Of a stretch of DNA of 64,000 bases, positions 420-57,821 are shown in pieces. Position numbers and translations under genes: made by a program. This DNA comes from Microglena sp. YARC (Eukaryota; Chlorophyta; Chlorophyceae; Chlamydomonadales; Chlamydomonadaceae). The notes under the pieces were generated by a model. It was given only the letters and a program-made list of their open reading frames with translations. It searched no databases and was not told where the DNA came from. Position 1 is the stretch's first letter. Each line of letters starts with the position of its first letter. Where the stretch lies: assembly GCA_022414725.1 (NCBI GenBank), contig CM039463.1, positions 84,604,620 through 84,668,619 on the forward strand, given 5' to 3'.

Positions 420-535
420 GTGTCCTCTCTCATCCAAAAAATTTCTGACGGTCAAACTGAGAAGAAGACGCCTACACAGATCTTGAAACGCTGCATTGAC
501 TTGGTTGTTGCCGACTGTCAAGCCAAATTCGCATG
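420..535 (+). CDS. Kinase gene exon 1 of window: start of GAF domain
   Basis: The exon follows the acceptor TTACACAG and ends before GTATGA. It encodes helix-like sequence including ILKRCIDLVVADCQAKFA. The last two bases (TG) join the first base of the next exon to make a Cys codon, giving FACIQVVS, typical of a GAF first helix and strand. Earlier exons must lie upstream of the window. Confidence 0.7.
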
Positions 536-2766
536 GTATGAGAAATGGGAAATGTATTTCGTAGTCAATCAGGCTTCAGGCTGCTCACTGTCTGGTGCTG
601 GAGAAAATATGGTAGCTATCTACTACACCGCACTCCTGAGTACATAACGTAATCTCACGGGTGTATATGGTTGCAAGATATATCCCCGTTCAACTAATGG
701 CTCAATGGCAGAGCTCCTTGTACGACCTAGGTCCCGGTTTCGAATCCCCACGGATGCGCTTAAGTGTTAACGTTCGCTGTCAACCGCCGTGGTAGCTTTG
801 TCCAGGTAAAGTATCAGCCCGTTCCCTACTGCCGTAAGACGGTGCTCCCTTACCACGCCCCACCAGGCGTTAACACTTATTTTATGACATGTACAGGTCC
901 TCTTCACATGTCATGTAGTGGTGTGGGTAGAGTACAATTTGATGTATGTGTATGTGTATGCGTGTGTGTGCGTACGTGTATGCGTGAGCGTGTGCCACAC
1001 CTGGGAAGTTGATGCTGATAGCCGGGTTTGAGAAGTTACTTTTGAAAGAACCCAGTGGTGCTGCAGCTGATGTGTGTAAGTGATGTATGTGGATGTGCGT
1101 GTATGTGTACCCGTGTGCATGTTCGAGTCTGTATGTGTACGATCCAGTCCATGGGGAGCTAATTAGACTGAAGACACTTGCCCTTGTTATGGGATGTGCC
1201 AATTGTTCAACGGTCGCAAGCATTGCAGTATCACATTTGCACATTGCCTCGTAGCTTTTATTTTCGTGTATTGCTAGCAGCTTCTAGGGAGCTCCCCTGG
1301 CTGGCGCCAAATCTAAAGCAACCTAGTGCACCTGGAAGCTGACACAATTAACTGTCCAACATAGTTGAAATATTGGGGCTTAGCCCAATGGCTGGCTCAA
1401 GGAGCTGCCAAGAAGCTGCTGAGAAAAGGCAAACAAAAAAGTGCTGCAATGCCTTTACTCTCTTCTCTTCTTTTGGGCTACAAGCAGCAGCTTCTAGGCA
1501 GCTCTTCTGCTTGGCTAATGAGCCAAACCTGAAGCAAGCTAGTGCATCTGGAAGCTGTCACTCACAGCTTTCCGAAACTCCTGAAATCATTGGGATTATA
1601 GAAGTGGCTGGCTCAGGCAGCTGCCTAGAAGCTGCTGCTCAAAGCCCCAAAGAAAACACTGCCTTGACTTACTCCTACCGAATCCTATCCAGCATGTGTC
1701 CTGAAAGCTCATGCAGTCCATGAGGTAGCAGTTCATTTTGTCATTAGTCGAATGACCCCCTACCCCTAACCCCTTCCCCCACTCTCCCTAACCCTATCCC
1801 TATCCCTGACCCTCACCCCACTCCCCCCGAACCCCCTACCCCTACCCCCTCACCTGACCCCCCCTTAATCCTTCCAGCATCCAAGTCGTATCTGTAGATT
1901 CTCAACATGCACTGCATGTAACCACGCCGGGAGCTGCTACTACCCCTATCCCCACTCCCCGAACCCCTGCCCCTAACCCCTTTCCCCACTCCCCCCTAAC
2001 CCCTACCTCCTCCCCTCACTCCCCCTAACCCCTTTCCCTAACCCCTCCCCTCACTCCCCCCTAACCCCTATCCCTAGCCCCTCACCTCACTCCCCCCTAA
2101 CCCCTAACCCCTCAACTCACTCGCCCATAATCCTTCCAGCATTAAAGTCGTCTCCGTGGATTCTCAGCATGCACTGCATGTGACCACGCCGGGAGCTGCT
2201 ACTACCCCCTATCCCGAACCCCTCACCCCCCACCCCCCTAACCCCTCCCCCTATCTCCCCCCCCCCCCCCCCCCCCCCCCTCCCCCCTCCCCCCTACCCC
2301 TTACCCCTACCCCTCCCCCCTACCCTCACTCCCCCATAACCCCTTCCCCCCCCCCCCCCCCCCCCCCTTTCCTCAATCCCCCCCTACTCCCTCCCCCTCC
2401 CCCCCCCCCCCCCTCACTCCCCCATATCCCTTATCCCTAACCCCTCACCTCGCCCCCCCATTACTCCTCCAGCATCCAAGTCGTATCCGTGGATTCTCAG
2501 CATGCGCTGCATGTGACCACCTCGGGAGCTGGTAATTTCATCAAGGATGAGCACAGGTTCCAACAGTTAAACAAGAAGGGAGCTCCAGTCGCCGCAAGCA
2601 AGGTCATAGCGTCTAAGGCAGAGTTCTATGAATGGAAAGGGGACACAGAGCCAGAGGTGGTAGACTGGAAGCACCTTGCTGAATCTTTACGTAGGTGTCA
2701 GGGGTGTTGAGGGGTTAGGGGGAGGGGGGTGGGGGTGGGGGCTTTGAGGGGAGTGAGGTGAGGGGG

Positions 2767-2802
<36 letters not shown>

Positions 2803-5800
2803 GGGGGGGAGGGGGGGGGGGGGGGGGGGTAAAGAAGAGAGGGGTAGTAGACTAGAAGCACCTTGCTGAATCTTTACGTAGTTGTCAGGGTTATGGTTGG
2901 GGGTAGGGCTTAGGGGGGAGTGAGGTGAGGTGAGGGGGAGTAGTCTGGAAGCACCTCGCTGAATCCTTAGTATGTGTCAGGGTTAGGGGTCAGGTGTAGG
3001 GGTTTGGGGGTGGGGGTGGGGGGGTAAAGAGGAGGAGGTGGTAGACTGGAAGCACCTCGCTGAATCTTTACGTAGGTGTCAGGGTTAGGGGTTGGGGGGG
3101 TGGGGGGTGGGGGGGTGGGGGGGGAGGGCTTAGGGGGGAGTGAGGTGAGGGGTGGGGGGGTGGGGGGTGGGGGGGGTAAAGAGGAGGAGGTGGTAGACTG
3201 GAAGCACCTCGCTGAATCTTTACGTAGGTGTCAGGGTTAGGGGTTGGGGTGGTGGTGGTGGTGGGGGGGGGGGGGGAGGGCTTAGGGGGGAGTGGGGGGA
3301 GGGGTGGGGTGGTGGTGGGGGGGGGGGGGTAAAGAGGAGGGGGTGGTAGACTGGAAGCACCTCGCTGAATCTTTACGTAGGTGTCAGGGTTAGGGGGAGG
3401 GGGTGGGGGTGGGGGAGGGCTTAGGGGGGAGTAATGGGGATGGGGTAGTAGACTAGGAGCACCTCGCTGAATCTTTACGTAGGTGTCAGGGTTAGGGGTT
3501 GGGGGGGGGGGGGAGGGCTTCTCAGCCATCTAGACACGCCCTAATCAAACAGTCAGCCTCCAAGCATATCTTTTCTCTTCCGCTACAAGCAGGGGGGGGA
3601 GGGCTTAGGGGGGAGTGGGGTGAGGGGTGGGGGGTGGGGGGGGTGGGGGGTCAAGAGGAGGGGGTGGTAGACTGGAAGCACCTCGCTGAATCTTTACGTA
3701 GGTGTCAGGGTTAGGGAGAGGGGGTGGGGGTGGGGGAGGGCTTAGGGGGGAGTAATGGGGATGGGGTAGTAGACTAGGAGCACCTCGCTGAATCTTTACG
3801 TAGGTGTCAGGGTTAGGGGTTGGGGGGGGGGGGGGGAGGGCTTCTCAGCCATCTAGACACGCCCTAATCAAACAGTCAGCCTCCAAGCATATCTTTTCTC
3901 TTCCGCTACAAGCAGTAGCTTCTAGGCAGCTCCATGAGCCAGCCACTGGGCTAAGCCCCAATGTTTCAATAATACTGGAACGATGATTCTGTCAGCTTCT
4001 AGTTGGACTACATTGCGATAGGATTAGCTGGGTAGCAAGCCAGGGGAATTGCCTAGAAGCTGCTGCTCGTAGCAGAAAAGAAAATCTATGCTTGGAGGTT
4101 GACTGTTTGATTAGGGCGTGTCTAGATGGCTGAGAAAATCCCCCCCCCCACCCACACACACACTTCCTCATCAATGATGGCTGACATACTCATCCCAACC
4201 CCTAAACCCTAAACCCTACTTCTACATTATTGAGATACACCAACATTGCGCCAACTTCTTGCAGTGCTGAAAGCACGAATTGCACCAACCTGAAAACACC
4301 AATTGCACCAACCTGAAAACACCAATTGCTCCAACCTGAAAACACCAATTGCACCAACCTGAAAACACCAATTGCACCAACCTAAAAACACCAATTGCAC
4401 CAACTTCTCGCAGAGCTGAAGGCACTATATGCTGTGCCTCTAAAAGTGAAAGGCCAGGCGATAGGGATTCTGACTCTGGGCTTCACGGATAGAGTCGGAA
4501 CTCACTCTCACGAGGTATGGCCGACATACCTCAAACTGATCGGAGCCAACATGACCTCCCGGATCAAGGACACTTGTATACCCAAGTACATGGACATGGT
4601 AAGTGCTACTAGGGTTTAGGGTTCAGCAAGCAGGCACACAAAGCGCCATGCCAGCCATTCCATGAATCCACCTGGGTAGAGGGGGGGGGGCAGGGGGCTG
4701 ACATGTTGCTTGTGTGCCTGCATGGCGGAGCCAGCATGACCTCCCGGATCAAGGATACTTATATACCCAAGTACATGGATATGGTAAGTGCTACTTTTGA
4801 ATTTACGCTGTTTCCTTTTCTTTTAATAACCAGGCCTGTATGTATGTGTGTATGTATGTATGTTACAGTCCTTACAGTCCAGGGGTAGGCCGGGGGGGGT
4901 AGGTCAAATTGGCTAAAGAGACTTGCCCAACCTAATATATGGCCTATTATATGGGTATGGCAAGTGCTGTTTTTTCGTTACCGTATCCAACGCTTTTCTG
5001 TAGTTGAATTTACGCTTCCTTTTCTGGTAATAACCAGGCATGTATATATGTATGTTACAGTCCAGGGGTAGGCCAAACAGGCTAAAGTGACTTGCCCAAC
5101 CCAGGCCTATTATATGTTTATATGGATTTGGCAAGTGCTGTTTTTTCGTTACCGTATCCAACGCAAGTCTCTAGTTGAATTTACGCTACATTTTCAGGTA
5201 AAAGCCAGGCCCAACATATATTTACATGGATATGGTAAGGGCGTTTTTTTGTTACTGTATCCAACGCTAGTCTGCAGTTGAATTTACCCCACATTTTCAG
5301 GTAAAAGCCAGGCCTATTGTGTGGAAATGGCAAGTGCTGTCTATTTGTTACCTTATCCAATGCTAGTCTGCAGTTGAATTTACCCCACATTTTCAGGTAA
5401 AAGCCAGGCCTATTGTATGGAAATGGCAAGTGCTGTCTATTTGTTATCTTATCCAATGCTAGTCTGCAGTTGAATTTACCCCACATTTTCAGGTGAAAGC
5501 CAGGCCTATTGTATGGAAATGGCAATTGCTTTCTATTTGTTACCTTATCCAACGCTAGTCTGCAGTTGAATTTATGCTAGCTTTTCAGATTACCAGGCCT
5601 TTTTCATTACCATACCCGATTTTTCCCCCCTCCTCCCTCCCTCCCACTTCCCTTCACACTACCCCTCCCATCCTCCCTCCACCCTACCTCACACTTCCCC
5701 TCGCACTTCCCTCCACCCTCCCTCACACTTCCCCTCGCACTTCCCCTCCTAGTTTCCCTCCACCTGCCCTCACACTTTCCTTCTACCCTCTCTCACACTT

Positions 5801-13032: not shown

Positions 13033-13064
<32 letters not shown>

Positions 13065-13751: not shown

Positions 13752-13782
<31 letters not shown>

Positions 13783-19700: not shown

Positions 19701-20285
19701 TGACGGCAAGAATGAAAAGATGGACCTGTAGAATGCACATGAATTTGCCATTCTATCAACCATCAGCCATCCCAATGTGATCCAGGTGAGCTAGAAAGAA
19801 TATGCGCATACCCTGTCCCCTATGCCTGCGACTGCATGGCAGACTTGCCCTCCATCTGTGTTCAGGTCAATTATCTCTGCCCCCCCCCCCCCCCCCCCAC
19901 ACACCACACACACACATACACACATACACACACACCTACACACACAACACACCTACACACACATACACACACATACACACACACACACACACACACCTAC
20001 ACACACACATACACACACACACACACCTACACACACACACCTACACACACACACACACACACACACACCTACCTACACAAACACACACCTACACACACAC
20101 ACACACACCTACACACACACACACACACCACACACACACACCTACACCTACACCTACACACACACACCTACACACACCTACACACACACACACACATACA
20201 CACACACACATACACACACACCTACACACACACACCTACACACACACACACACCTACACCTACACACACCTACACACACACACAC

Positions 20286-20323
<38 letters not shown>

Positions 20324-23300: not shown

Positions 23301-26300
23301 GAGATTGCATCAGCGCTGGCAGAGATGCATAGGATGGGCATTGTGCATTGCGGTGGGTGGTTATGTACAATATCTGTCAGCTCATTAGTCATCACACTCT
23401 TTGAGATTGCATCCGCCCTGGCTTCGATCCGCTGCACTCGATTCCTCTTGTCGATCCGGTAGCTAACACTCTCAACTTATGTATGCCTGGGAAACCCTAA
23501 ACCCTAAACTTCCATCATAGATACATTTAAAATGAGATTTGATTAATTCTCGGCTTTTTTGATGAACCTGTGTGAAGAATCTGATCGCACTCTCTTGCTC
23601 TTTTCCTTCTTGCGGATATCAAGCCTCACAACGTGCTGCCCTGCACCCCACCCCCCACCCCCCCACCTCTACCCCCCCACCTACATCCCCCCCACCTCCA
23701 CCCCCCACCCCTCCCCCACCTCCCCCACCCCTGCAAAACGTGCCCAGGCATCCAATCCCAGTACAATCCAGTCCAGTCAGATAGACCGGAATATCACCTC
23801 AACTCATACAACCAATCAAGAATCTGATTGCACTCTTTTGCTCCTTTCCTGCTCGCAGTTTTTAAGCCTCCCAACGTGCTGCCCTGCAGTTTTTTTTTAA
23901 TCTGTTGTGAAGAATCTGATCGCATTCTTTTGCCCTTTTCCTGCTCGCAGATATTAAGCCTCCCAACGTGCTGTGAGTATTTCAAGAGTCCAGGAGAGAG
24001 GAGGGCATGACTTTTTCTCTTGGGTTGTATGTTTTCAAATCTTCAGGTCCAATTTTGCATGATCTAACTGGTAGTAATTGTACTGGGATTGGTCATGAAG
24101 ATTCCAAACGTGCTGTGAGTATTTCAAGAGTCCAGGAGATAGGAGTGTAGCGTAGTATTGCATAGCATAGTATTAGTTTAGCAGAGTAGTAGTAAAGGAA
24201 GGAGGATAGCATAGCATAGTAGTAGTAGTAGGATAGGATAGCATAGCATAGTAGTAGAAGAGAAAGGAGTACTGTATAGCATAGTAGTAGTAGAGAAAGG
24301 AGTATGGTTAAGCATAGTAGTAGTAGAGAAAGGAGTACTGTACAGCATAGTAGTAGTAGAGAAAGGAGTAAAGTATAGCATAGCATAGTATTTGCAAGAG
24401 TCCAGGAGACAGGAGTATAGTGTAGGATAGTATTTGTATGGCTTAGTATTAGTTTAGCAGAGTAGTAGTAAAGAAAGGAGTAAAGCATAGCATAGAAGTA
24501 GTAGTAGTAGTAGTATAGGATAGCATAGGAGTAGAAAAGAAAGGAGTACTGTACAGCATAGTAGTAGTAATAGTAGAGAAAGGAGTAAAGTATAGCATAG
24601 TATTAGTTTAGCAGAGTAGTAGTAAAGAAAGGAGTAAAGCATAGCATAGAAGTAGTAGTAGGATAGCATAGCATAGAAGTAGAAGAGAAAGGAGTGCTGT
24701 ATAGCATAGTAGTAGTAGTAGTAGTAGTATAGCATAGCATAGTGTTTGCAAGAGTCCTGGAGACAGGAGTATAGTATAGTATTTGTATCGCATAGTATTG
24801 GTAAATCATAGTAGTAGTAGAGAAAGGAGTAGAGCATAGCATGGTCTCATGTGTATTAATATTTAGGTGGAATTTCGCAATATTTTACTGGGATTGATTG
24901 TACTGAGATGGGATAAGATGCCTCCTTGTGTGCTCTGAGTATTTGAAGAGCGCAGGAAAGAGAGTAAGGCATGACTTCCTGTCATGGGTTGTATGTGTTC
25001 AAATATTTGAGGTGATTTTCGCGTTATCTAACTGGGATCAATTGTACTGGGATCGGATAAGCAGCCTCCTTATGTGCTGGGAGTATTTTAAGAGTCTAGG
25101 AGAGACAGGAAGGCGCAACTTCCTATCATAAGTTGTACGTATGGTTTGTATGTGTTCAAATATTGAGGTGGGATCTCAAGACATTCTCATTGGTTGTATG
25201 TGTTTGAATATTGAGGTGATATTCCGTTGTATCTGACTGGACTGGATTGTACTGGGATTTATTGCTTGGGCACGTTTCTGCAGGGGGGGGGGGGGGGGGG
25301 GGGGGGCAATATTATGTTGCTTGGATTAACTCATATGGTGATATGGAGAAACAGAGTCCAGTTATATGCCCCGTTCTGTATATCTACCACAACAGGCAAA
25401 TATGGTAGAGGGACTTCCAACCAACGTCAAACAATCAACAACCTCAAACAAGAACATAAACAACCTCTAACATCATCAAACAATCAACAACCTCAAACAA
25501 CAACATAAACAACCTCTAACATCATCAAACTATCAACAACCTCAAACAAAATAAACAACGTTAACAACCTCGAACATCATCAAACAATCAACAACCTCAA
25601 ACCATCAACACCAAGCCTCCAGAGGCCTACATCATCAGTTTTTTAGCACTTGTTTTCAAGCCTTAGTTCCTAGCACTCGTTTTCTAGCCTACATCATCTG
25701 TTATGTAGCACCAGTTTTCTAGCCTTAGTTCCTGGCGCTCATTTTCTAGCCTACACCATCTGGTTTCTAGCACCACTTTTGTAGCACTCACGTTCTAGCC
25801 TACACCATCTGGTTTCTAGCACCACTTTTGTAGCACTCACGTTCTAGCCTACACCATCTGGCTTCTAGCACCACTTTTGTAGCACTCACGTTCTAGCCTA
25901 CACCATCTGGTTTCTAGCACCACTTTTGTAGCGCTCATTTTCTAGCCTACACCATCTGGTTTCTAGCACCACTTTTGTAGCACTCACGTTCTAGCCTACA
26001 CCATCTGGCTTCTAGCACCACTTTTGTAGCACTCACGTTCTAGCCTACACCATCTGGTTTCTAGCACCACTTTTGTAGCACTCACGTTCTAGCCTACACC
26101 ATCTGGTTTCTAGCACCACTTTTGTAGCACTCACGTTCTAGCCTACACCATCGGGTTTCTAGCACCACTTTTGTAGCACTCACGTTCTAGCCTACCCCAT
26201 TTGGTTTCTAGCACCACTTTTGCAGCACTCACGTTCTAGCCTACACCATCTGGTTTCTAGCACCACTTTTGTAGCACTCATGTTCTCGCCTACATCGTCA

Positions 26301-29300
26301 GGTTTCTAGCACCACTTTTGTAGCCTAAATCTGTATGCCTGCTGCTTGGTGTCCCTGTAGGTTGAAGAGCTCCAACACAGACCCTCGCGGCTTCATTGCC
26401 AAGGTCTCGGACTTTGGGTTGAGCAGGTGTGATTGATTTGGTTTAGGTTAGTTGTGCTCGGACTTCGGGTTGGGAAGGTGTGATTGATTTGGTGTAGGTT
26501 AGTTGTGCTCCCCATTTTGTTGATTCAGGCGTGATTGGTTTGGTTTTGCCTACTGCGGTCGTGTATTATGTGATTGGTTTTGTTTAGTTTAGTTGTGTAT
26601 GATGTGATTGGTTAGGTTTGCATTACGTTGGTTGTGTATGATGTGATTGGTTAGGTTTACATTACGTTGGTTGTGTATGATGTGATTGGTTAGGTTTACT
26701 TTACGTTGGTTGTGTATGATGTGATTGGTTAGGTTTACATTACGTTGGTTGTGTATGATTTATCAGCCCTCAGGCTGCTCACTGTCTGCATGCAGAGTAA
26801 ACCTGAGGAGTACATCCCCTACGTTGTCACTGAAGCGCTCATACACAACAGTGATCTTATGATGATGATGATGATATTGCTGTAATATTGTTATGATGAT
26901 GATGATGATGATGATGATGATGCAGTGACATTCAGTGTTTTTGGCGGAGCCCCCTCTTCAAGGGGGCGGGAGCCCCCATGTTTACCCATTTGTCCGTTTG
27001 ACCGAAATATTTGAAGCCCGACACGTCAGCCAACGGTCGCGTAACTAACTCGCTTCGGCCAGCTCCATCGTTGCCACCTTTCATTCGGTTGCCATCACAC
27101 TCCGCCAATTTTCCGTGTCGCTTGCGTCGCTGCATAGGACTTGTTTATTTCAGATTTCTCTGGGCAAGGTTGTCTAGCTGGGTGGGCTACTCAAGCCTGA
27201 TTTCAGAAAAATGGTCACTGACATTATCATAATGATGGTCATGATGATATTGCTGTGATATTATTATCATGATGATGATCTCATGATTCTTGTGCGCATG
27301 CATGGTTGAGGATGGTGATAGAACAGCCTACTTCCCCTTCCCCCTTCCCCTAACTCCCCTTCAACTTCAAGTATCTGGTGGTTGCTTTTGTGAATGTAGG
27401 GTTGAGGACGATGAGACAATAGCCTACTCCCCCGTCAGTTTCCCCTTCTTCCCCTTTCCCTACTCCCTCTTCTATTTCCCCTTCTTCTCCTTCCCCTACT
27501 TCCCCTTCAACTTCAAGTTTCTGATGGTTGCTTGCGTGTATGCAGGGTGAGGACGATGAGAACAACGCCTACTTCCCTTCAACAGCTGTGGCACGGTGCC
27601 TTACAGTGCCCTCGAAGCGCTCATGCACAACAAAAGTATGATGATGATGATGATGATGATGATGATATTCCTTTTTATAATCTTCGTATTTATTCTCATG
27701 ATGCCCTTATGGTTGCTTGTGTGTACGCAGGGTTGAGGACGATGAGACAGCAGCCTACTTCCCCTTCAACAGCTGTGGCACAGTGCCCTACGTTGCACCT
27801 GAAGCACTTACCAACAGCAAGAAGGTGAACAGCAGTGTGGACGTCTATGCGTACGGCATAATGATGTGGGAGATATACACCGCCAAAAAGCCGTTCAGCA
27901 AAATGAAGCAACAGGACTTGGTGGATCAGGTAATTTGAATTTCCACATGACACACACACACGACACACACAACACACACACACGACACACAACACACACA
28001 CGACACACACAACACACACACACAACACACACACAACACAGACAACACAACACACACACACACACACACAACACACACACAACACACTCACAACACCACA
28101 CAAACACACACACGGCACACACACAACACACACACGATGCAGCTGTGCTGATGTTCCCCCCCTAATGCACCAGAAGACTACGCCGAACAAGCTGTTTTCA
28201 TGAAACCTGAAAATGTTGTTTGTGACACACTAACTAACTAACTATCTAACTAACTAACTAACTAACTAACGGACATTTTAATTGGTGTAATCCCTTCTTT
28301 CAAAATTTTGGAGATTTTTTCATTCGGATAACAAGCTGAATTGTGGTCAAGCGCAACCCCTGAGGCCCTGCCCGGCTATTATATTAATTTTGACACTCTT
28401 TATATTATATCCGTCCATTTGCCGGCACGACGCAGGTTGTGAATGAGGAGAGGCTGTGCTGATTTTCTTCCCCAATGACAAGAAGACTGTGTGGAAGTAG
28501 CTGAATTATGTTGAACCTAAACCCTAAATAGTGCAGCCTCTGAGGCCCTGCCCAGCTACTTATCTCAATTTTACTCGTTTTATTCTATGTATGTCCATCT
28601 GTCCGCACGAAGCAGGTTGTGAGGAGAGGGCTGCGCCCGGTTCTCTTCCTAATGCTCCGGAAAACTGCATGGAAGTAGCTGAATCGTGTTTGCCCTAAAC
28701 CCTAAACCCTGAACAGGGCAGTCTCTGGGGCCCTGCCCGACTACTTCATTCAATTTTACTCGTTTTATTCTATATCTGTCCGCACGACGCAGGTTGTGAG
28801 GAGAGGGCTGCGCCCGGTTCTCTTCCTTGTGCTCAAGAAGACTGCGTGGAAGTGGCTGAATTATGTCGAACCTAAACCCTAAATAGTGCAGCCTCTGAGT
28901 CCCTGCCCGGCTACTTCGCTTAATTGTACTCGCTTCATTATGTATCTGTAAGGGTCGGCTATGTTAAATAATATTAATGAATACATAATATTAAATAATG
29001 AAAGTAATGATAACGCCTGGTGGGGCGTGGTGTCAAGGGAGCCCGTCGAACGCGGGTGGGGAGCGGTCTCCTACCTCAACTGGACAAGCTACCATCGCGG
29101 TTGACAACGACCTGCAACGCCAAGAGCGACTGAAGGGGGAGTCGAACCCCCGACTCTTCATCCTCAAGCAATCTGGTCTACCACTAGACCATTGTATATC
29201 ACTGAAAGGGGCTTAAATACTGAAATATAATATTAGTCGGACAAGCCGTCTCGCCAGAATTTCGAATTTATTTGAAAAACTAGAATTATTGTGACACTGT

Positions 29301-30693
29301 AATAATATTATTTTTTCAAACACTAATATTAATTGCCGTTCCCTATATATCTGTCCATCTGTCCGCACGACGCAGGTTGTGAGGAACGGGCTGCGTCCGA
29401 TTTTCCCCACTAATGCTCCAGAAGACTATGCAAAACTAGCTGAATCCTGTTGGAGCGCAGCCCCAGAGTCCCGGCCCACTTTCGTGGAATGCACGGCCCA
29501 GCTGAATAGAATGATGGACGCCCAATTGGCCGTAGGTAATATTATGAGACGAAGTCATGTTTGCAACTGTGTTGTGTGTGTTTTTTTATAGTCCAGGGGT
29601 AGCCAAAGAGGCTTAAGGGACACACATCAACACGCTAATGGGATATGTGTATGTATGTTACAGTCCAGGGGTGTTCAAATAGGCTTACGCGATTCACATC
29701 TCCCCGCAGATGTCTCAATATATTGCTACCTAATAGATATTGATTGGGTGGGGGGAGGTACTTCCCAGGCAGTACAGTGGGGGCACCAGTTTTGGCAATT
29801 TCACCTTTCAGTATTCCATTATAAAGGGTTTGTTTATAGCTGTCATCGTGTGCACGTACTTTTTATTGGATGTTCACCATTAATGAGCTATTTGCGGTTA
29901 CAGATTGGGCAAACACAAGGTACACCGTGGGTTTAACTTCAAATGCTAATAACTTGTTGACATTTATCAATTTCACATCTGAGTGTACCATTGGGCAGGA
30001 AATTTCAATAGCTTCCACTATATGCACTTGCTCTTTATTGGATGCTTGTCATTATTGAGTTATCCAGCCCATCTCTGGTCTTGATTTGAATTTAATTGTA
30101 ATATGGTTTTCCAGCCAGCCCTAGGCAGACTATAGGTTATTACCCAAGTAACACACAGTGAATATGTAACTAGGAAATGTCGCACAAGCAAAGTGGGGTT
30201 TTGCCAACTTTTTATTTGTTTATTTAAGTTCTGGTTTTTATTTATTTATTTTAGTTCTGGTTTTTATTTATTTATTTTAGTTCTGTTTTTTTATTTATTT
30301 TAGTTCTGGTTTTTTTTTTTTAGTTCTGGTTTTTATTTCACAGTTTTGAACTTACAGGAGCCTGTTCGAGGCCTTTCTGGGGGCGGAAGTCCCCAGAGTC
30401 ACCCCGTTGTCCGATCGTCAGCACGTACACTGGGCTCTGTGTAAACCCTGGATAATTTGGGCGGGGGGGAGGGATATTGTCCAAACTCACTGTGGCGTGC
30501 ATCCACTGAGAAAAAAATCCACTGAGAAAAGAATGACTAAATTGCCAACTCCTCCCTCCCTCCTCCTATCAGAAGAATTATTCCCCTCCATTACCAATCT
30601 ATCTCCCGTAAACACTGAACTGCCAACACCTCCATCCATCCATCCTTCTGTCAGAAAAATGACTTAGTGCAGGTTTCCAACAACAGTTACACA

Positions 30694-30738
<45 letters not shown>

Positions 30739-31275
30739 TGGTTAAGAGCGCGTTGGTGAGCGGGCCTATACCTTCAACTACTTTCCGAAACTTTAATCTG
30801 TGTCTTTCTTTAACTGGTTGGAAACATGCTGTAGCACAACCTTATTATGGTGTGGCCAATACACTGGGCAAAACAGTACTAACGCCCTCACTATGACTAA
30901 CATGTTGAACACCCTCACTATGACTAACATGACTAATACCCTTACTATGACTAACATGACTAACACCCTCACTGTGACTAACATGACTAACACCCTCACT
31001 ATGACTAACATCACTAACACCCTCACTAAGACTAACATCACTAACACCCTCACTGTGGGTGTCCTCAATACACAGCTCAACAAAATGATGGACCTGGGTC
31101 GCATCGATGGTCGGACATGATGGGCAACGGCGGGGCGCGCTCCAGCCAGTCCAATACCGGAGAAAGCCCTGTGAAAGCCCATGCTCGCAGCTCAGTACCA
31201 GCACAAGTGCGCAGCACGGGGCCGACGCATGTGCGTAGCTCAGTACCAGCGACGCCTCCTACAGGCAACAGATAA
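420..31275 (+). CDS. Giant GAF plus TKL protein kinase gene, 18 exons, 5' end outside window
   Basis: This gene-level entry joins exons 420-535, 2473-2690, 4414-4598, 6074-6244, 11011-11088, 12147-12201, 12277-12338, 13126-13239, 14147-14296, 15943-16209, 19293-19490, 21675-21887, 23069-23255, 23951-23972, 26361-26426, 27731-27929, 29376-29535 and 31076-31275. All flanking dinucleotides are AG and GT, and every junction keeps one open frame of about 886 codons to a TAA stop. The first exons give a GAF-like domain (small-ligand or sensory fold); exons 4-9 give a second GAF-like region; exon 10 is a Gly/Ser-rich linker; exons 11-17 give a kinase domain with a Gly-rich loop, HCDIKPPNVL catalytic loop, DFG, APE and CW...RPTF motifs, as in tyrosine-kinase-like kinases. 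The product is probably a signalling Ser/Thr kinase; its ligand and substrate are unknown. Exons 6, 7 and 18 are the least certain. Confidence 0.8.
692..878 (+). mobile_element. tRNA-derived SINE, copy 1
   Basis: The head has a pol III A box (TGGCTCAATGG) and a B box with one extra T (GGTTTCGAATCCC). The D-stem GCTC/GAGC is intact, but no acceptor stem pairs. The body, with TGTCAACCGCCGTGGTAGCT and CACGCCCCACCAGGCGTTA, is shared with the reverse-strand copy at 29011-29194 and, for its tail, with 52018-52086. It is a SINE rather than a tRNA gene. No target duplication could be confirmed by eye. Confidence 0.65.
1273..1428. mobile_element. AGCAGCTTCTAGGCAGCT-type MITE, copy 1
   Basis: The left end AGCAGCTTCTAGGGAGCTC and the right end GAGCTGCCAAGAAGCTGCT are imperfect inverted repeats. 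The interior shares TGGCTGG and a CTGGAAGCTGACAC-like core with the other copies. Confidence 0.7.
1475..1648. mobile_element. AGCAGCTTCTAGGCAGCT-type MITE, copy 2
   Basis: The ends GCAGCAGCTTCTAGGCAGCT and CAGCTGCCTAGAAGCTGCTG form near-perfect inverted repeats. About 170 bp long. It lies close to copy 1 in the same orientation. Confidence 0.75.
1741..2472 (+). repeat. C-rich intron with two decayed copies of the exon 2 acceptor and 5' end
   Basis: The segments at about 1872-1944 and 2136-2206 repeat the exon 2 acceptor (CTTCCAG) and about 65 bases of its coding start, including GATTCTCARCATGC. Between them are CCCCTAACCCC-type repeats and long C runs (a C homopolymer at about 2259-2280). 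The true exon is the third and last copy. Confidence 0.85.
2473..2690 (+). CDS. Kinase gene exon 2: GAF domain core
   Basis: It lies between acceptor CTCCTCCAG and donor GTAGGT. It contributes IQVVSVDSQHALHVTTSGAG and EVVDWKHLAESL, matching the strand-loop-helix part of a GAF fold. The first base completes the Cys codon from exon 1, and the final C joins AG of exon 3 to make Gln. It is uninterrupted, unlike the copies around it. Confidence 0.8.
2691..3835 (+). repeat. G-rich intron with eight extra copies of the exon 2 donor end
   Basis: About 40 bases spanning the exon 2 end and donor (GAATCYTTACGTAGKTGTCA) recur at about 2850, 2942, 3047, 3192, 3349, 3451, 3668 and 3769 (one, near 2970, is diverged). 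They are separated by G homopolymers and a TG run. The donor is kept in most copies. Confidence 0.9.
3522..3593. mobile_element. Truncated left arm of the long-armed MITE
   Basis: These 72 bases match the left arm of the element at 3844-4134, then stop abruptly at a G run. The tandem duplication of the flanking donor repeat appears to have carried along only this arm. Confidence 0.7.
3844..4134. mobile_element. MITE variant with about 85-bp terminal inverted repeats
   Basis: The outer arm begins CTCAGCCATCTAGACACGCC at 3844 and its complement ends at 4134. The arms include the AGCAGCTTCTAGGCAGCT core plus about 60 further outer bases not seen in the shorter family members. The interior carries TTTCAATAATACTGGAACGA, also found in the copy at 43874. 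Confidence 0.8.
4225..4413 (+). repeat. 24-bp tandem array next to the exon 3 acceptor
   Basis: The unit AACACCAATTGCACCAACCT and variants repeat about six times. The first unit is preceded by a diverged copy of the exon 3 acceptor and start (CTTCTTGCAGTGCTGAAAGC at about 4255) and the last runs into the true acceptor. The array arose by duplication of the acceptor region. Confidence 0.8.
4414..4598 (+). CDS. Kinase gene exon 3: GAF C-terminal strands
   Basis: The exon runs from acceptor TTCTCGCAG to donor GTAAGT. It encodes LKALYAVPLKVKGQAIGILT, a classic last-strand GAF signature, then an extension with MTSRIKDTCIPKYMDM. Frame is kept from exon 2 and ends in phase 0. Confidence 0.8.
4599..5600 (+). 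repeat. Decaying copies of the exon 3 end and donor, grading into a 95-bp array
   Basis: A close copy of the exon 3 end (CAGCATGACCTCCCGGATCA to ATGGATATG with GTAAGT) lies at 4731-4790. It is followed by increasingly diverged units ending in ATGG(T/C)AAGTGCTG near 4955, 5127, 5234, 5330, 5426 and 5522. From about 5310 the units are about 95 bp long and very alike. In several the donor GT has become GC. Confidence 0.85.
5601..6073. other. C/T-rich intron filler
   Basis: This is pyrimidine-rich low-complexity sequence with CCCTCC, CACTTCC and similar units up to the exon 4 acceptor. The long Pro/Ser-rich open frame here is a composition artefact. Confidence 0.8.
6074..6244 (+). CDS. Kinase gene exon 4: start of second GAF-like region
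   Basis: The exon lies between CGTCTCAG and GTGAGC and has exactly 57 codons in phase 0. It encodes VQDLYEAPDLDSFVHYILTH and THTWFRIALA, an amphipathic helix and following strand. Frame and phase fit its neighbours. Confidence 0.75.
6245..7165 (+). repeat. CCCTGCC minisatellite enclosing a copy of the exon 4 end
   Basis: From 6245 to 6957 there are about twenty short units of CCCCTGCC, CTCTCTGCC and CTCCTCCTG type. At 6958-7034 a clear copy of the last 75 bases of exon 4 follows (CACCAGAACAGCACCCAC onward) with changes and no donor. More CCCTGCC repeats lie beyond. The long open frames on both strands are repeat artefacts. Confidence 0.85.
7276..7455. mobile_element. AGCAGCTTCTAGGCAGCT-type MITE, copy 3
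   Basis: Left end GGCTACACGTAGCAGCTTCT and right end GCTGCCTGGAAGCTGCCAAG are inverted repeats. The core GACCCAATGGCTGGCTCATG is shared with other copies. The element lies inside the intron after exon 4. Confidence 0.75.
7456..8360. other. Intron with AT and TG repeats
   Basis: Positions 7495-7600 repeat GTGTAGTGTATATATA. Positions 7980-8350 are rich in GTGTGTATG and related motifs. No exon was identified. Confidence 0.75.
8517..8834 (-). CDS. Unrecognised 105-codon open frame, antisense in intron
   Basis: The frame has a balanced, acidic composition (for example ASDMSENELSSDFYQEEDEV) unlike the repeat-derived frames nearby. I do not recognise the family. It could be a piece of another gene carried in by a mobile element or a small nested gene. 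There is no splice or promoter evidence. Confidence 0.25.
   Translation of the reverse strand: MQDGSSAAPIASTSSVVTFPGDIKQRGKGRSFIVTLNIGGEVQPGLKSLVPASSRVELEGFDASDMSENELSSDFYQEEDEVFETSKLSEDDWHEVLPEDSYWVL
9033..9310. repeat. Direct repeat pair of about 115 bp
   Basis: The segments at about 9034-9145 and 9197-9310 are nearly identical (CCATGGGAATCTATGTTAAT to GTAAGCCTTAGA). A triple GATACGAAAGCGAAT repeat lies just upstream at 8943-8985. Confidence 0.8.
9351..9526. mobile_element. AGCAGCTTCTAGGCAGCT-type MITE, copy 4
   Basis: The ends GGGGCTACTCTCAGTAGCTT and GAAGCTGCTATGGGTAACCC are inverted repeats. The core CAGCTTTCAGACGCACTAGC is shared with the copy at 17864. Confidence 0.75.
9600..11010 (+). 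repeat. CTCTGCAGCTGAATT array and C-rich tracts before exon 5
   Basis: A unit of about 60 bp (ACTCCACTCTGCAGCTGAAT plus CCCTAAA-like sequence) repeats about six times at 9620-9930. Longer copies with GCGACTGGAGCTGG and AAGAAGTCAAGTGGG recur at about 9905, 10366 and 10911. Long C runs occupy 10450-10610. The stretch leads into the exon 5 acceptor. Confidence 0.8.
11011..11088 (+). CDS. Kinase gene exon 5
   Basis: The exon runs from acceptor GAAGTCCAG to donor GTGAGC, 26 codons in phase 0. It encodes AAGGIMRSYAPLKGSIMKVS. It matches the pattern of a GAF mid-domain strand pair and is duplicated downstream. Confidence 0.65.
11089..11600 (+). repeat. Copies of the exon 5 donor and a 50-bp array
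   Basis: GGCAGCAGGTGAGCATG recurs at about 11171 and 11256 with G-rich spacers. A diverged copy of the exon body (ATCATGCCATCAAATGCTCC to CATCCAAAAC) lies at about 11357-11424. It is followed by three copies of a 50-bp unit containing CAACCCGGTTGTTTACTGGA. Confidence 0.85.
11601..12146. other. Intron sequence without recognisable feature
   Basis: This is AT-rich, mixed sequence. I see no exon that I can support before the acceptor at 12146. Confidence 0.6.
12147..12201 (+). CDS. Kinase gene exon 6 (tentative)
   Basis: The proposed exon lies between acceptor ATCATGCAG and donor GTGAAT. It encodes CQVPLTNQDLGGLETVAI, like the 'FTxxDLxxLxxxA' helix before the last GAF helix. It starts in phase 0 and leaves one base, which exon 7 completes. 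Support is by motif and phase only. Confidence 0.45.
12277..12338 (+). CDS. Kinase gene exon 7 (tentative)
   Basis: The proposed exon lies between acceptor ATTCGCAG and the weak donor GTACCC. It encodes DRDILYCLSKLKSLLPDLLL, a helical linker that leads into VIIPDLQKLL of exon 8 in frame. Without exons 6 and 7 the flanking exons would still join in frame, so this pair could be optional or wrong. Confidence 0.4.
12465..12760. repeat. ATC/CACCATCAT microsatellite
   Basis: Interrupted trinucleotide repeats of ATC, CAC and TCATA type fill this intron segment. Confidence 0.95.
12790..12870 (+). repeat. Copy of the exon 8 acceptor and first half
   Basis: After TCTGCAG the sequence encodes VLIPTFQKLLNKSGRMSHDL in frame, closely matching exon 8 (VIIPDLQKLLNQSGRVSHDL). 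It then diverges into AT-rich repeats without a donor, so it looks like a decayed partial exon copy. Confidence 0.8.
13126..13239 (+). CDS. Kinase gene exon 8
   Basis: The exon runs from CTGTCTAG to GTAAGG, 38 codons in phase 0. It encodes VIIPDLQKLLNQSGRVSHDL and ends KPPTSVLVFPLR, the entry strand of a GAF C-terminal sheet. Confidence 0.8.
13240..13980 (+). repeat. Six extra copies of the exon 8 donor junction
   Basis: CTGGTCTTCCCTCYCAGGGT and about 40 following intron bases recur at about 13330, 13442, 13551, 13676, 13808 and 13924. They are separated by G- and GGT-rich spacers, including a 27-base G run near 13770. Most copies keep the GGGTA donor context. Confidence 0.9.
14015..14130. 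repeat. AACTC/AACTG pentamer repeat
   Basis: Short AACTCAACTGAACTC-type units lie just before the exon 9 acceptor. Confidence 0.9.
14147..14296 (+). CDS. Kinase gene exon 9: end of second GAF domain
   Basis: The exon runs from TTATCCCAG to GTAAGA, 50 codons in phase 0. VKQNVYGALYCMSSVRSDFA after LVFPLR of exon 8 is a strong GAF signature (strand-turn-strand followed by a helix), ending NTKLKDEYE. Confidence 0.85.
14297..15600 (+). repeat. Eight extra copies of the exon 9 end in two array types
   Basis: First come units of about 195 bp, with exon-9-end copies at about 14446-14490, 14640-14685 and 15042-15087. Then come units of about 99 bp at roughly 15140, 15238, 15338, 15437 and 15536. Each carries CACATCCTGCATCTC, ACCAAGC and usually a GTAAG donor. 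Several encode the same peptide in frame. Confidence 0.9.
14690..14899 (+). mobile_element. Hairpin-ended 210-bp element, copy A
   Basis: It starts AAGTTCTATGCAGCGTCGC. A perfect hairpin AGCGTCGC-CT-GCGACGCT lies near the 5' end, and GGGGGCTCCC...GGGGGGGCTCCGCC lies at the 3' end. Related copies are at 16717-16912 and, reversed, 26938-27142. It interrupts a copy of the exon 9 repeat exactly at the donor, so it inserted after that duplication. Confidence 0.75.
15660..15942. repeat. CA repeats with a copy of the exon 10 acceptor
   Basis: Two C-run/CA tracts lie here. Between them, at about 15730-15775, CTCCCTTGAACAG followed by ACTATCTAGATGAGATCC resembles the true exon 10 acceptor and start at 15930-15960. 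Confidence 0.8.
15943..16209 (+). CDS. Kinase gene exon 10: Gly/Ser-rich linker
   Basis: The exon runs from CTTGAGCAG to GTGAGC, 89 codons in phase 0. The protein is rich in Gly, Ser and Met (SGNMTGGSGIFQSGMLGSGV), then has a helix LVSGLTEKLNEKRIRSAMEF. It links the GAF region to the kinase domain. Confidence 0.75.
16230..16575 (+). repeat. Two large copies of the 3' half of exon 10
   Basis: Copy one (about 16236-16386) and copy two (about 16424-16568) repeat some 140 coding bases of exon 10. Both are preceded by a T-rich tract ending TTTTTAGCATG, a plausible acceptor, and followed by GTGAGC or GTTAGT. Splicing from exon 10 at that acceptor would not keep frame. Confidence 0.9.
16717..16912 (+). 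mobile_element. Hairpin-ended 210-bp element, copy B
   Basis: It has the same start AAGTTCTATGCAGCGTCGC and a perfect hairpin AGCGTCGC-TA-GCGACGCT, then GCGAGTTAGTTACGAGA and the 3' GGGCTCCCGCCCCCTTGAAG motif. The GAGTTGGTGTGGAGAG bases occur on both sides of it, which may be a duplicated flank. Confidence 0.75.
17195..17245. repeat. Dispersed TTACAGTCCAGGGG repeat
   Basis: TTACAGTCCAGGGG(T)AG, then CCAAATAGGCTAAAGG and ACT(T/C)G(C/T)CCAACC, also occurs near 4860, 5055, 18361, 29585, 29655, 31665 and 61150. It is a short interspersed sequence of unknown nature seen in introns and between genes. Confidence 0.75.
17864..18039. mobile_element. AGCAGCTTCTAGGCAGCT-type MITE, copy 5
   Basis: The ends GGGGGCTACACATGGCAGCT and AGCTGCTACGCGTAGCCCC are inverted repeats about 28 bp long. 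The core GTCAGCTTCCAGACGCACTA is typical of the family. Confidence 0.8.
18181..18361 (+). mobile_element. AGGGTA-TTCAAA element, copy 1
   Basis: About 180 bp bounded by AGGGTTATTCAAA and TTTGAAGTACCCT, imperfect 13-bp inverted repeats. The interior is rich in GCGC (TTCAAGTGCGCTAAAGCGCT). A second copy in the opposite orientation is at 32450-32642. Confidence 0.75.
18560..19290. repeat. Diverged tandem array with repeated ACACGTGGTTG
   Basis: Units of roughly 35-60 bp combine AACACGTGGTTGTATG with TTGTATGTTGATCTA. The CACGTG core recurs at least eight times. It fills the intron before exon 11. Confidence 0.85.
19293..19490 (+). CDS. Kinase gene exon 11: kinase N-lobe
   Basis: The exon runs from AACTGTAG to GTGAGC, 66 codons in phase 0. 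It encodes the Gly-rich loop (DEGGFAKVFRGLYRG), the beta-3 Lys in VVGIKVV, the alpha-C helix with AHEIAIL and HPNVIQ. The second Gly of GxGxxG is shifted (EGGFAK), but the fold is otherwise canonical. Confidence 0.9.
19667..19801 (+). pseudogene. Decayed copy of exon 11 with an in-frame stop
   Basis: It repeats about 130 bases from AGAGGCTTGGTGGTGGGC to GTGATCCAG plus GTGAGCTA. The ATG of MDMKNAH is replaced so that CTG TAG ends the frame. It still has a donor and is preceded by ACACCAG. Confidence 0.85.
19802..21674 (+). repeat. Array of nine copies of the exon 12 acceptor region, CA-rich
   Basis: Copies of CCCCAGGCCTACATCTGC and following coding-like bases lie at about 20432, 20578, 20746, 20909, 21073, 21233, 21379 and 21523, with a more diverged one near 19820. 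The outer units (about 165 bp) contain CA/CATA repeats and GCCCATGACATGAACTAAC; the inner three (about 145 bp) retain up to 80 bases of exon 12. The long Thr/His frames here are CA artefacts. Confidence 0.9.
21675..21887 (+). CDS. Kinase gene exon 12: hinge region
   Basis: The exon runs from GTGCCCCAG to GTAATG, 71 codons in phase 0. It encodes AYVCMTDVPVYDLI, an insert ending YKYLQSNSDKVCHIE, then the hinge VLEYCDLGNLSTAV. This fits kinase strands 4-5 and the hinge. Confidence 0.85.
21888..22500 (+). repeat. Three copies of the exon 12 donor end with G runs
   Basis: CTTCATGGACTCACCTGGAC followed by AGGTAATAAAGATAG recurs at about 22040 and 22225, and a shortened form at about 22452. Each is followed by TATTTCAGCAACATGGGGG and G homopolymers. 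Confidence 0.85.
22550..22700. repeat. ATC/GTC microsatellite
   Basis: TCATCATCATC with CGTCGTC interruptions, then CCCATCCCATC units. Confidence 0.95.
22700..23068 (+). repeat. About 60-bp units joining CCCTAAACCC motifs to the exon 13 acceptor
   Basis: Units containing AACCCTAAACCCAT, CCATCCTTCAGGGGCGC and TTCGATCCAACC occur at about 22833, 22893, 22953 and 23013, then the true acceptor at 23068. Each unit carries the acceptor and the first 20-25 bases of exon 13. The CCCTAAA motifs are plant-telomere-like but lie inside the gene. Confidence 0.9.
23069..23255 (+). CDS. Kinase gene exon 13: helix E and start of catalytic loop
   Basis: The exon runs from ATCCTTCAG to GTGAGT. It encodes a charged linker (LSPLKEKDKDKNEGG) and LLITLIEIASALAEMHRMGI then VHC. 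The final G joins exon 14 to make the catalytic Asp codon. Confidence 0.85.
23256..23470 (+). repeat. Two copies of the exon 13 3' end
   Basis: A near-exact copy (about 23282-23360, ending GTGCATTGCGGTGGGT) and a diverged one (about 23380-23436) repeat the helix E coding sequence. The first could encode the same peptide in frame and keeps a donor. Confidence 0.9.
23565..23950 (+). repeat. Two decoy copies of the exon 14 acceptor and micro-exon
   Basis: GAAGAATCTGAT(C/T)GCA, a T/C-rich tract and an acceptor-like end lie at about 23574-23645 (TTGCGGATATCAAGCCTCAC) and 23819-23887 (CGCAGTTTTTAAGCCTCCCA). Both continue AACGTGCTGCCCTGCA instead of the GTGAGT donor. Confidence 0.85.
23951..23972 (+). 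CDS. Kinase gene exon 14: 22-nt micro-exon of the catalytic loop
   Basis: Between TGCTCGCAG and GTGAGT, 22 bases encode most of DIKPPNVL, so the catalytic Asp, the Lys and the metal-binding Asn depend on this exon. With exon 13 it gives HCDIKPPNVL, the kinase HRDxxxxN motif with Cys for Arg. Confidence 0.8.
24090..25150 (+). repeat. Copies of the exon 14 donor side and TAGTAG-rich arrays
   Basis: AACGTGCTGTGAGTATTTCA with AGAGTCCAGGAGA recurs at 24107 and, diverged, near 24932 and 25073. From 24150 to 24845, AGTAGTAGAGAAAGGAGTA and ATAGCATAG units repeat many times. The Leu/Tyr-rich reverse frames here are artefacts. Confidence 0.85.
25280..25620. repeat. G run and AACAACCTCAAACA repeats
   Basis: A G homopolymer of about 22 bases starts at 25285. 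From 25420 to 25610, AATCAACAACCTCAAACAA units repeat. Confidence 0.9.
25625..26335. repeat. 49-bp tandem array, about 13 copies
   Basis: The unit contains CTACACCATCTGGTTTCTAG and CACCACTTTTGTAGCACTCA. Copies from 25748 onward are nearly identical and directly abut, with older diverged units at 25625-25747. The array ends about 25 bases before the exon 15 acceptor. Confidence 0.95.
26361..26426 (+). CDS. Kinase gene exon 15: DFG segment
   Basis: The exon runs from GTCCCTGTAG to GTGTGA. One base completes the Leu codon from exon 14; it then encodes LKSSNTDPRGFIAKVSDFGL and leaves AG for exon 16. It contains the magnesium-binding DFG. Confidence 0.85.
26427..26800 (+). repeat. Copy of the exon 15 donor and a 40-bp array
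   Basis: CTCGGACTTCGGGTTGGGAA followed by GGTGTGATTGATTTGG at about 26456 repeats the exon 15 end. Then GATGTGATTGGTTAGGTTTA plus CATTACGTTGGTTGTGTAT repeats about five times to 26760. Confidence 0.9.
26800..27730 (+). repeat. Copies of the exon 16 acceptor and 5' end
   Basis: GTTGAGGA(C/T)G(A/G)TGA with acceptor-like TGCAG or TGTAG recurs at about 27303, 27398 and 27545 before the true exon at 27731. The third copy extends about 90 bases into the exon (AACAGCTGTGGCACGGTGCC). A more distant piece (CCCTACGTTGTCACTGAAGC) lies at about 26817. ATG/ATC microsatellites separate them. Confidence 0.85.
26938..27142 (-). mobile_element. Hairpin-ended 210-bp element, copy C
   Basis: Read on the reverse strand it matches copies A and B from AGTCCTATGCAGCGACGC to GAGGGGGCTCCGCC, including GCGAGTTAGTTACGCGACCG. 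The 5' hairpin is degraded in this copy. Confidence 0.75.
27731..27929 (+). CDS. Kinase gene exon 16: activation loop and APE segment
   Basis: The exon runs from GTACGCAG to GTAATT. The first base completes Arg; then come VEDDETAAYFPF, CGTVPYVAPEAL (the APE motif), VDVYAYGIMMWEIYT and KKPFSKM. This is TKL kinase subdomains VIII to X. Confidence 0.9.
27945..28135. repeat. CA/ACACAA repeat
   Basis: Dinucleotide CA with ACACGACAC interruptions directly follows exon 16. Confidence 0.95.
28136..28945 (+). repeat. Four decayed copies of exon 17
   Basis: Exon-17-like sequence occurs at about 28136, 28434, 28614 and 28794; the last three include CGCACGA(C/A)GCAGGTTGTGA, the true acceptor context. 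GGGCTGCGCCCGGTTCTCTT parallels GGGCTGCGTCCGATTTTCCC of the exon. CCCTAAACCCTAAA motifs sit inside several copies where the exon reading frame has been lost. Confidence 0.9.
29011..29194 (-). mobile_element. tRNA-derived SINE, copy 2
   Basis: On the reverse strand the head carries A box TGGTCTAGTGG and a perfect B box GGTTCGACTCC in a GGGGG/CCCCC T-arm, and a D-stem GGTC/GACC. The acceptor stem does not pair, so it is not a functional tRNA gene. The body (GTTGTCAACCGCGATGGTAG to CACGCCCCACCAGGCGTTA) matches copy 1. TTCAGT lies on both sides of the head. It has inserted between the decayed copies and true exon 17. Confidence 0.65.
29376..29535 (+). CDS. Kinase gene exon 17: C-lobe end
   Basis: The exon runs from GACGCAG to GTAATA. 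It encodes VVRNGLRPIFPTNAPEDYAK, then AESCWSAAPESRPTF, the subdomain XI signature with the conserved Arg, and AQLNRMMDAQLAV. One base is left for exon 18. Confidence 0.85.
29536..31075. other. Last intron: dispersed repeats, T-rich tract and a 27-bp array
   Basis: TTACAGTCCAGGGG-type repeats lie near 29590 and 29655. TTTAGTTCTGGTTTTTATT repeats occupy 30215-30340, and a CA run lies near 30700. Units of about 27 bp (ACCCTCACTATGACTAACAT) repeat from 30885 to 31055. Confidence 0.75.
31076..31275 (+). CDS. Kinase gene exon 18: C-terminal tail (tentative)
   Basis: It follows AATACACAG and stays open for 65 codons in the phase demanded by exon 17, ending TAA at 31273. The tail is Ser/Pro/Arg-rich with repeated HVRSSVPA-like units. 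A caution: CAGCTCAACAAAATGATGGA at 31073 also resembles the exon 17 sequence for QLNRMMD in another frame, so this may be a partial exon 17 copy and the true end could differ. Confidence 0.45.
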
Positions 31276-31540
31276 TTTGAACACACACACACACACACAT
31301 AGCACCGCCTCCCCCCCTCCACCCATCTAGCCCCCCCCCCCACCACACACAACACACACACCGGCGCATGTGCGTAGCTCAGTACCAGCGACGCCTCCTA
31401 CAGGCAACAGATAATGTGAACACACACATACACATACCACCACCTCCCCCCCTCCACCCATCTAGCTCCCCTCCACCGGCGCATGTGCGTAGCTCAGTAC
31501 CAGCGACGCCGCCAACAGGCAACAGATAATTTGAAGCATC
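31276..31540 (+). repeat. Two extra copies of the coding end and stop codon
   Basis: CGCATGTGCGTAGCTCAGTA to GGCAACAGATAAT recurs at about 31364-31415 and 31480-31533, separated by CA runs and C-rich tracts. The terminal coding units were tandemly copied together with the stop codon. Confidence 0.9.
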
Positions 31541-33477: not shown

Positions 33478-33479
<2 letters not shown>

Positions 33480-33643: not shown

Positions 33644-33719
33644 AAAAGATAAACAGTAGGTATTGCATGAAAGATTGTGCCATGGTCCCTTGGTTACTGG
33701 GGTGCTATTGTTGTTTTGT

Positions 33720-57816: not shown

Positions 57817-57821
57817 CTGAG

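Follow-up and report, generated by a model that had tools for sequence, protein, structure and literature searches.

The first 31 kb of the window (the whole 64-kb stretch of green algal DNA analysed here) hold one protein-kinase gene on the + strand, whose 5' end lies before the window. We positioned 15 GT-AG exons by eye and by phase, from 420-535 to 29376-29535, and the joined exons give an unbroken frame of 811 residues. Exon 1 of the model (420..535) is followed by exon 2 (2473..2690, with the donor GTAGGT picked by phase), exon 3 (4414..4598), exon 4 (6074..6244), exon 5 (10921..11088), exon 6 (13126..13239), exon 7 (14147..14296) and exon 8 (15943..16209). The kinase exons 9, 10 and 11 (19293..19490, 21675..21887 and 23069..23255) precede a 22-nt microexon, exon 12 (23951..23972), exon 13 with the DFG motif (26361..26426), exon 14 with the APE motif (27731..27929) and exon 15 (29376..29535). 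Pfam placed GAF matches in the N-terminal part of the protein and a protein kinase domain on its C side. Predicted proteins of Volvox, Chlamydomonas eustigma, Haematococcus and Sanguina align with almost the entire protein at 46-51% identity, which makes a chlamydomonad green alga the probable source. EukProt entry P0001 (580 residues) agrees with exons 8-15, and the residues of exon 8 are identical to it from its MGANAP on; beyond exon 8 it carries additional blocks, and it supplies a 3' exon at 31076-31275, ending in TAA, which we included as predicted exon 16. Our model therefore has 15 exons plus this predicted one, with 31 junctions (16 acceptors and 15 donors), where an earlier, sequence-only reading had numbered exons up to 18. 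Introns range from 695 to 4676 bases and total 28,220 bases. Rfam and tRNA scans returned 0 matches. The one DNA relative from viral contigs, a single distant kinase at 23% identity, was not used.

We searched for copies of each junction in its neighborhood. In the main scan, the junction with 60 bases on either side was aligned to 3 kb on each side, with the junction itself masked, and copies crossing the junction by at least 8 bases were counted. We found 61 copies at 21 of the 31 junctions, one to eight per junction, close to the one to nine claimed by the earlier reading. A scan with a smaller mask raised the number of junctions to 22 by adding the exon 13 donor, whose 51-base unit is hidden by the 60-base mask and whose copy is not counted among the 61. 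Copies were found for 10/16 acceptors and 12/15 donors; 14/15 introns are duplicated at one end or both, 8 of them at both. No spanning copy was found for either edge of exon 1, for the acceptors of exons 4, 7, 9, 13 and 16, or for the donors of exons 14 and 15. When the real probes were run against dinucleotide-shuffled flanks (best alignment only), 0/31 junctions gave a copy in each of ten replicates. We conclude that intronic copies of exon edges with their splice sites, as first noted from the sequence, are confirmed as real and lie far above chance. The orientation is also as described: acceptor copies all lie upstream of the exon (28/28) and donor copies all downstream (33/33), which follows from the definition of the true exon.

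The copies are direct and local. Inverted (reverse-complement) copies were found at 0/31 junctions; they are present at 73 of 400 intron points, where the matches are probably dispersed elements. Within the 64-kb window, 0 HSPs were junction-spanning direct matches with a partner more than 3 kb away, so the window does not show the pattern of introner-like elements, in which one mobile intron sequence, shared between intron ends, recurs at many unrelated sites. Local direct repeats account for 56% of the 28,220 intronic bases and families that include a junction for 42%, and one reading frame survives beside the copies, so the proposal that these introns consist largely of local tandem duplications stands.

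Nine arrays hold at least three listed copies, and 12 of the 21 listed junctions have just one or two. All lie on the + strand. Exon 2 has two copies upstream in its acceptor array (1756..2534) and eight downstream in its donor array (2653..3842). Exon 3 has a single copy at its acceptor (4237..4425) and, in the donor array (4541..5603), one listed copy along with weaker 96-bp units. The exon 4 donor (6151..7157) has one copy, and there the junction itself falls in an alignment gap. The exon 5 acceptor array (9610..10987) contains five listed copies with 45-bp subunits; the donor (11081..11271) has one listed copy with 8 exonic bases. Exon 6 has one copy at its acceptor (12789..13194) and six in its donor array (13218..14001), followed by seven listed copies, in 194- and 99-bp units, in the exon 7 donor array (14212..15592). 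At exon 8 we found one acceptor copy (15675..15965) and, on the donor side (16060..16569), one copy in the main scan and a further one, corresponding to the extra coding sequence in P0001. One copy lies at the exon 9 donor (19370..19797). Exon 10 is flanked by eight acceptor copies (20391..21753) and three donor copies (21781..22513). The exon 11 acceptor array (22795..23094) is made of 60-bp units with CCCTAAA, two copies being listed, and its donor (23185..23422) has a 97-bp unit with one listed copy. The microexon, exon 12, has two acceptor copies (23555..23973) and three donor copies (23951..25140). The exon 13 donor (26406..26507) has one copy of its 51-bp unit, and three copies each make up the acceptor arrays of exon 14 (27261..27808) and exon 15 (28406..29452). 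The telomere-like motif CCCTAAA, considered as a cause of the duplications, occurs 21 times in the first 32 kb of the window versus 4 times in the second, but many of these are inside a few arrays.

We next describe what the copies contain. Identity of the 61 listed copies to their junction is 77-100%, most differing by 5-23%. The exonic part of a copy spans 8 to 143 bases without a fixed endpoint. The AG or GT is kept in 55/61 copies (90%), more than a guess of 0.88 squared would give, though such retention is favored by counting only alignments that span the junction and by the non-independence of copies. In none of the 61 copies are the two splice sites of an exon found together, not even at exon 12 with its 22 bases; conservatively, whole exons would be expected in 2.2 arrays, giving P(0)=0.033. 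We infer that selection against complete extra exons may account for this lack. Tandem exon duplication with mutually exclusive splicing involves whole exons with both splice sites. The kinase gene resembles such cases in its local copies of exonic sequence, and differs from them in that its copies are half-exons.

Exonic and intronic parts of the copies have diverged about equally (88.4% and 87.3% identical). A fixed exon and a free intron would predict more divergence in the intronic part, so that recent origin or homogenization must be assumed. Exonic mismatches amount to 11.4, 9.5 and 14.0% at codon positions 1, 2 and 3. These rates argue that the copies are not strongly kept as protein. 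The excess at position 3 over positions 1 and 2 has a nominal P=0.013, from copies that are not independent, and could reflect either drift of the exon or some constraint on the copies. In exon 15, two of three copies have an arginine codon where the exon encodes N. Relatives have R at this position in 4 of 5 aligned proteins (P0002, P0003, P0004 and P0006), and W in P0008. The arginine-bearing copies thus seem to descend from an older form of the exon.

The earlier reading had described the copies as progressively decayed. This holds for four of the nine arrays with at least three copies, in which identity falls with distance; the rank correlation is positive in the other five. At the exon 6 donor, the first four copies alternate between two types, and at the exon 10 acceptor the five distal copies have common variants missing from the exon, both of which indicate that copies were themselves amplified. 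With several units and higher-order or concerted changes in some of them, the arrays behave as minisatellites rather than as simple series.

One concern is that the arrays are an assembly artefact, produced by misassembled repeats or collapsed haplotypes. The DNA does contain runs of 20-30 G or C, which are hard to sequence, and in the exon 2 donor array two stretches of about 323 bp match each other at 97.5% identity. Most copies, however, differ from their junction by 5-23% and have variants of their own, unlike near-identical haplotypes, and the arrays are different at 22 junctions; for comparable repeats in the lancelet gene PGBD5, re-sequencing spoke for real duplications (PMC3902484). 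We regard an artefact as extremely unlikely.

We scanned 14 homologous proteins for internal repeats by gap-free off-diagonal comparison, taking the best stretch per shift and up to eight best matches per protein. At least three of the 14, all of them EukProt entries, have repeats at exon-edge positions among the matches listed. In P0001, which is the same gene, copies of exon 8 are read as protein. P0013 has four copies of a 24-residue block that ends, by alignment, at the equivalent of the exon 10 donor edge, and P0008 has three blocks that begin at the aligned equivalent of the exon 4 acceptor edge. Judging from these blocks, duplications of this kind seem to have occurred in two other genes. 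In the other 11 homologues, the matches listed include none at an exon-edge position, being low-complexity or weak matches elsewhere. The EukProt entries look like predictions, and transcription of the extra blocks is putative. Annotators should be warned that P0001, P0008 and P0013 hold repeats resembling exon-edge copies read as coding sequence.

These entries bear on the possibility that the copies are functional, acting as alternative half-exons or as decoy splice sites that regulate splicing. Inclusion of such copies in P0001, P0008 and P0013 would fit this explanation, as would the AG or GT kept in 55/61 copies and the somewhat greater difference at third codon positions than at first and second. 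On the other hand, mismatches at positions 1 and 2 are just moderately below those at position 3, 0/61 copies have both splice sites, and the 11 remaining homologues gave no exon-edge repeat among the matches listed. We therefore consider a function for the copies very unlikely. The open 811-residue frame and the relatives' proteins suggest that splicing ignores the copies and uses the inner sites.

Based on these observations, we consider it likely that the introns grew through tandem duplications of DNA of the minisatellite type, tolerated if the added copy does not show in the protein and permanently anchored at exon edges. In such a process, (i) a segment of about 50-300 bases (longer for some spaced copies) straddling a splice junction would be duplicated head to tail, by replication slippage or unequal exchange; (ii) the extra copy would fall on the intron side with one splice site of the exon but not the other; (iii) the spliceosome would pair the innermost acceptor and donor of the exon (exon definition), and the copy would leave with the intron; and (iv) further duplications would multiply the copies, which would then drift. 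Since an exon end cannot be lost, it would serve as a permanent seed, while intronic seeds would come and go, leaving an excess of exon edges among the repeat families.

Whether repeats are in fact anchored on splice junctions, as the sequence-only reading proposed, depends on the level at which the question is asked. A local copy was found at 22/31 junctions (71%) and at 267 of 400 intron points (67%; 62% after low-complexity filtering), so that position by position junctions show no significant excess over introns (P=0.70). The junction set scored 20 hits, versus a mean of 16.2 when it was rotated along the gene (p ~0.11; 0.10-0.61 under other settings). Junctions do exceed exon-interior points, 91 of 202 of which (45%) have a local copy (P=0.011). 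At the level of families the picture is different. Self-BLAST, with partners taken on one strand and units under about 50 bases possibly missed, gave 40 local repeat families, of which we kept 37 after dropping those that start after 31100 or have fewer than 60 bases in the assigned intron. Of these 37, 20 abut or enter an exon, while random placement in introns predicts 2.4-13.6 over six nulls. With up to 80 exonic bases allowed, 4.6 are expected, or 8.6 with doubled detectability, which is our own estimate of the bias from having one conserved partner; the most liberal null (150 exonic bases, doubled detectability) expects 13.6 (P=0.015). Exon edges are over-represented at the family level only. 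The two results are compatible because the exon-adjoining families are the big ones: junction-linked families make up 13,106 of the 17,783 bases in repeat families.

Alternatively, the edges may be irrelevant, with hits as frequent as elsewhere, and the gene may be a 31-kb hotspot of tandem duplication, arising by the same duplication step as above, in which edges were noticed because exons are recognizable. The similar frequencies at junctions and intron points, the rotation result, and the local copies at 91/202 exon-interior points compared with 35/400 random points in the rest of the window (33-64 kb) are all what a hotspot would give. Against it stands the family count, as five of the six nulls expect 2.4-8.6 and the sixth 13.6 exon-abutting families. 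Before filtering, 19 of 40 families touched an edge versus a rotation mean of 10.5, and 0 of 504 rotations scored as high, under a null that is biased because arrays stop at exons. Weighing both sides, we hold the hotspot to be a serious possibility that falls short of probable. We also considered low-complexity tracts as a trigger and rejected them: they exceed 15% of the stretch from exon to nearest copy in 11/21 arrays only, and their share is 31% in junction arrays, 32% in intron outside arrays and 7% in other arrays.

As a control we used a MAPK gene on the - strand at 46847..50588, with five exons by our model, found via Volvox, Haematococcus and other relatives; no other gene was recognized by eye among the listed frames of the window. 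Its four introns are 362-928 bases long. None of its eight junctions has a local copy, which differs from the 22/31 of the kinase gene (Fisher P=0.0004); local copies were found at 8 of 181 of its intron points. With two genes compared, this shows only that junction copying is not universal, and the statement that nearly every intron has this architecture holds for the kinase gene (14/15 introns) and fails for its neighbor.

The presence of the pattern in one of the two genes examined, together with the family excess at exons, could also arise if transcription or splicing directed duplications to junctions, for instance through R-loops or through reverse splicing and reverse transcription. Copies, however, reach 8-143 bases into the exon and across into the intron with no endpoint at the junction, which favors DNA duplication over an RNA route. 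A stop-codon edge, which has no splice site, is likewise triplicated. Targeting of this kind is in our view very improbable.

This edge lies at the end of predicted exon 16. The C-terminal codons and the stop TAA occur three times within 31222..31535 (+ strand), with starts at 31222, 31361 and 31476. Termination hides any copy that follows a stop, so what the copies have in common would be invisibility in the protein and not the splice site. The earlier idea that splicing conceals the copies is thus too narrow: splicing would not be the sole hiding place, if the predicted last exon is right.

The start of predicted exon 16 (31073-31093) matches the interior of exon 15 (29499-29519) at 18/21 bases, with CAG serving as acceptor. 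The 21-mer was chosen after the likeness had been seen, and gave 0 matches in 100 shuffles. Intron 15 is perhaps a candidate for birth by duplication. If this were general, the arrays would record intron gain and not growth, through duplicated exon segments with AG/GT (the Rogers model). Copies at the other junctions contain intronic sequence beside the exon edge, which means that the intron existed before the duplication, and we find intron gain an improbable account of the arrays.

A further reading, which extends the duplication mechanism preferred here, is that exon edges in some genes of this lineage are permanent seeds of an intron-growth engine that occasionally yields new introns, with intron 15 as a candidate. 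Each junction would go on founding arrays of half-exons, and these would fill the intron starting at its ends, as only the exon end can never be lost. The blocks at aligned exon edges in P0013 and P0008 would be edge copying of the same sort in related genes. We offer this reading tentatively and consider it rather doubtful.

Long introns are usually attributed to transposons. Isolated tandem exon duplications had been the only precedent named in the sequence-only reading. That limit does not hold, as the same structure is already known in lancelets under the name "mirage": Adh3, the globins BflGb6 and BflGb9, troponin C and PGBD5 are reported to contain tandem repeats that cross exon-intron boundaries (PMC3087553, PMC3902484). 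As these reports describe them, units are 10-160 bp at 5' or 3' boundaries, AG/GT is kept in many copies, the mRNA is undisturbed, length varies, and changes are concerted within clusters (PMC3087553, PMC3902484); the authors of PMC3087553 propose that mirages lead to new introns. The kinase-gene repeats likewise span boundaries, affect both acceptors and donors and show minisatellite dynamics. In contrast to the one or few boundaries per gene that the lancelet reports describe, 22/31 boundaries and 14/15 introns are affected here, along with a stop-codon edge, and in a green alga. Splicing and haplotype lengths were examined in lancelets, according to the same reports, whereas the kinase gene is known from one sequence alone. 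Set against the lancelet reports, such a density of junction copies within a single gene is unusual.

Intron gain via tandem duplication has been described, including ATP2A1 and potato RdRp (PMC4974935). The potato case, as presented there, crosses an intron-exon border and its copy inherits splice signals, much as here; a new intron arises in those cases, while in the kinase gene introns that already existed become longer, with intron 15 as a possible exception. In a survey covering plants and green algae, repeats with 1-50 bp units were densest in the introns of Chlamydomonas reinhardtii and Volvox carteri, and their frequency was higher close to intron-exon junctions (PMC3887541). Our gene agrees with this in being from a green alga, in having introns as its repeat-densest parts and in having more repeats near intron ends. 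It differs in unit size, the survey's units being 1-50 bp, and the accessible portion of the survey does not report exon sequence within the unit. Median intron lengths in the core-Reinhardtinia are given as 198-343 bases (PMC8226300), compared with 695-4676 bases for the introns here. Among the matches listed in the open-access literature, no title or abstract opening described mirages or repeats across junctions from a green alga.

With 42% of its intron sequence in families of its own junctions, beside a gene with none, the kinase gene offers a natural laboratory for intron growth and exon definition. At the exon 2 donor and the exon 10 acceptor, the spliceosome must pick the innermost of up to nine similar sites.

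Intron 15 of the GAF and protein kinase gene, between exon 15 (29376-29535) and the predicted exon 16, is a candidate for birth by duplication. Inside exon 15, the stretch at 29499-29519 agrees at 18 of 21 bases with the start of the predicted exon (31073-31093), a likeness in which CAG serves as the acceptor. In a shuffled control, the 21-mer, which was picked after the likeness had been seen, gave no match in 100 shuffles. As a separate observation, part of the HCDIKPPNVL kinase motif is encoded by a 22-base microexon, exon 12 (23951-23972).

We counted 21 copies of CCCTAAA in the first 32 kb (1-32000) versus 4 in the second, and 3 versus 2 of TTTAGGG. Many CCCTAAA copies lie within the acceptor arrays (local tandem copies of an exon start and its splice site, upstream of the true exon) of exons 5, 11, and 15. 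Tandem blocks matching exon-edge positions of the gene are also present in two homologues of its product from EukProt, P0013 (residues 353-449) and P0008 (residues 110-195); these are possibly annotation inflation.

A dispersed element of ~150-200 bases (CAGCTTCTAGGCAGCTCC...), present in both orientations, occurs at 1276-1662, 3906-4092, 7260-7471, 9337-9541, 17850-18053, 33473-33657, 43875-45188, and 60909-61097, and by eye resembles a foldback element or a MITE. Related stretches with a tRNA-like T-loop sequence (682-883, 29001-29190, 39131-39202, and 52018-52093) may, judged by eye, be tRNA-derived SINEs; ARAGORN reported no tRNA. Another dispersed element, of ~200 bases, is found in three introns (14687-14900, 16717-16905, and 26937-27145; identity 72-79%).

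Two identical 329-base direct repeats (52858-53186 and 57490-57818) flank minus-strand frames that by eye resemble Copia reverse transcriptase, integrase, and RNase H (53579-56163); together they are probably a recent LTR retrotransposon. A long plus-strand open frame with a CCHC-like motif (35744-37741) resembles, also by eye, a retroelement gag.
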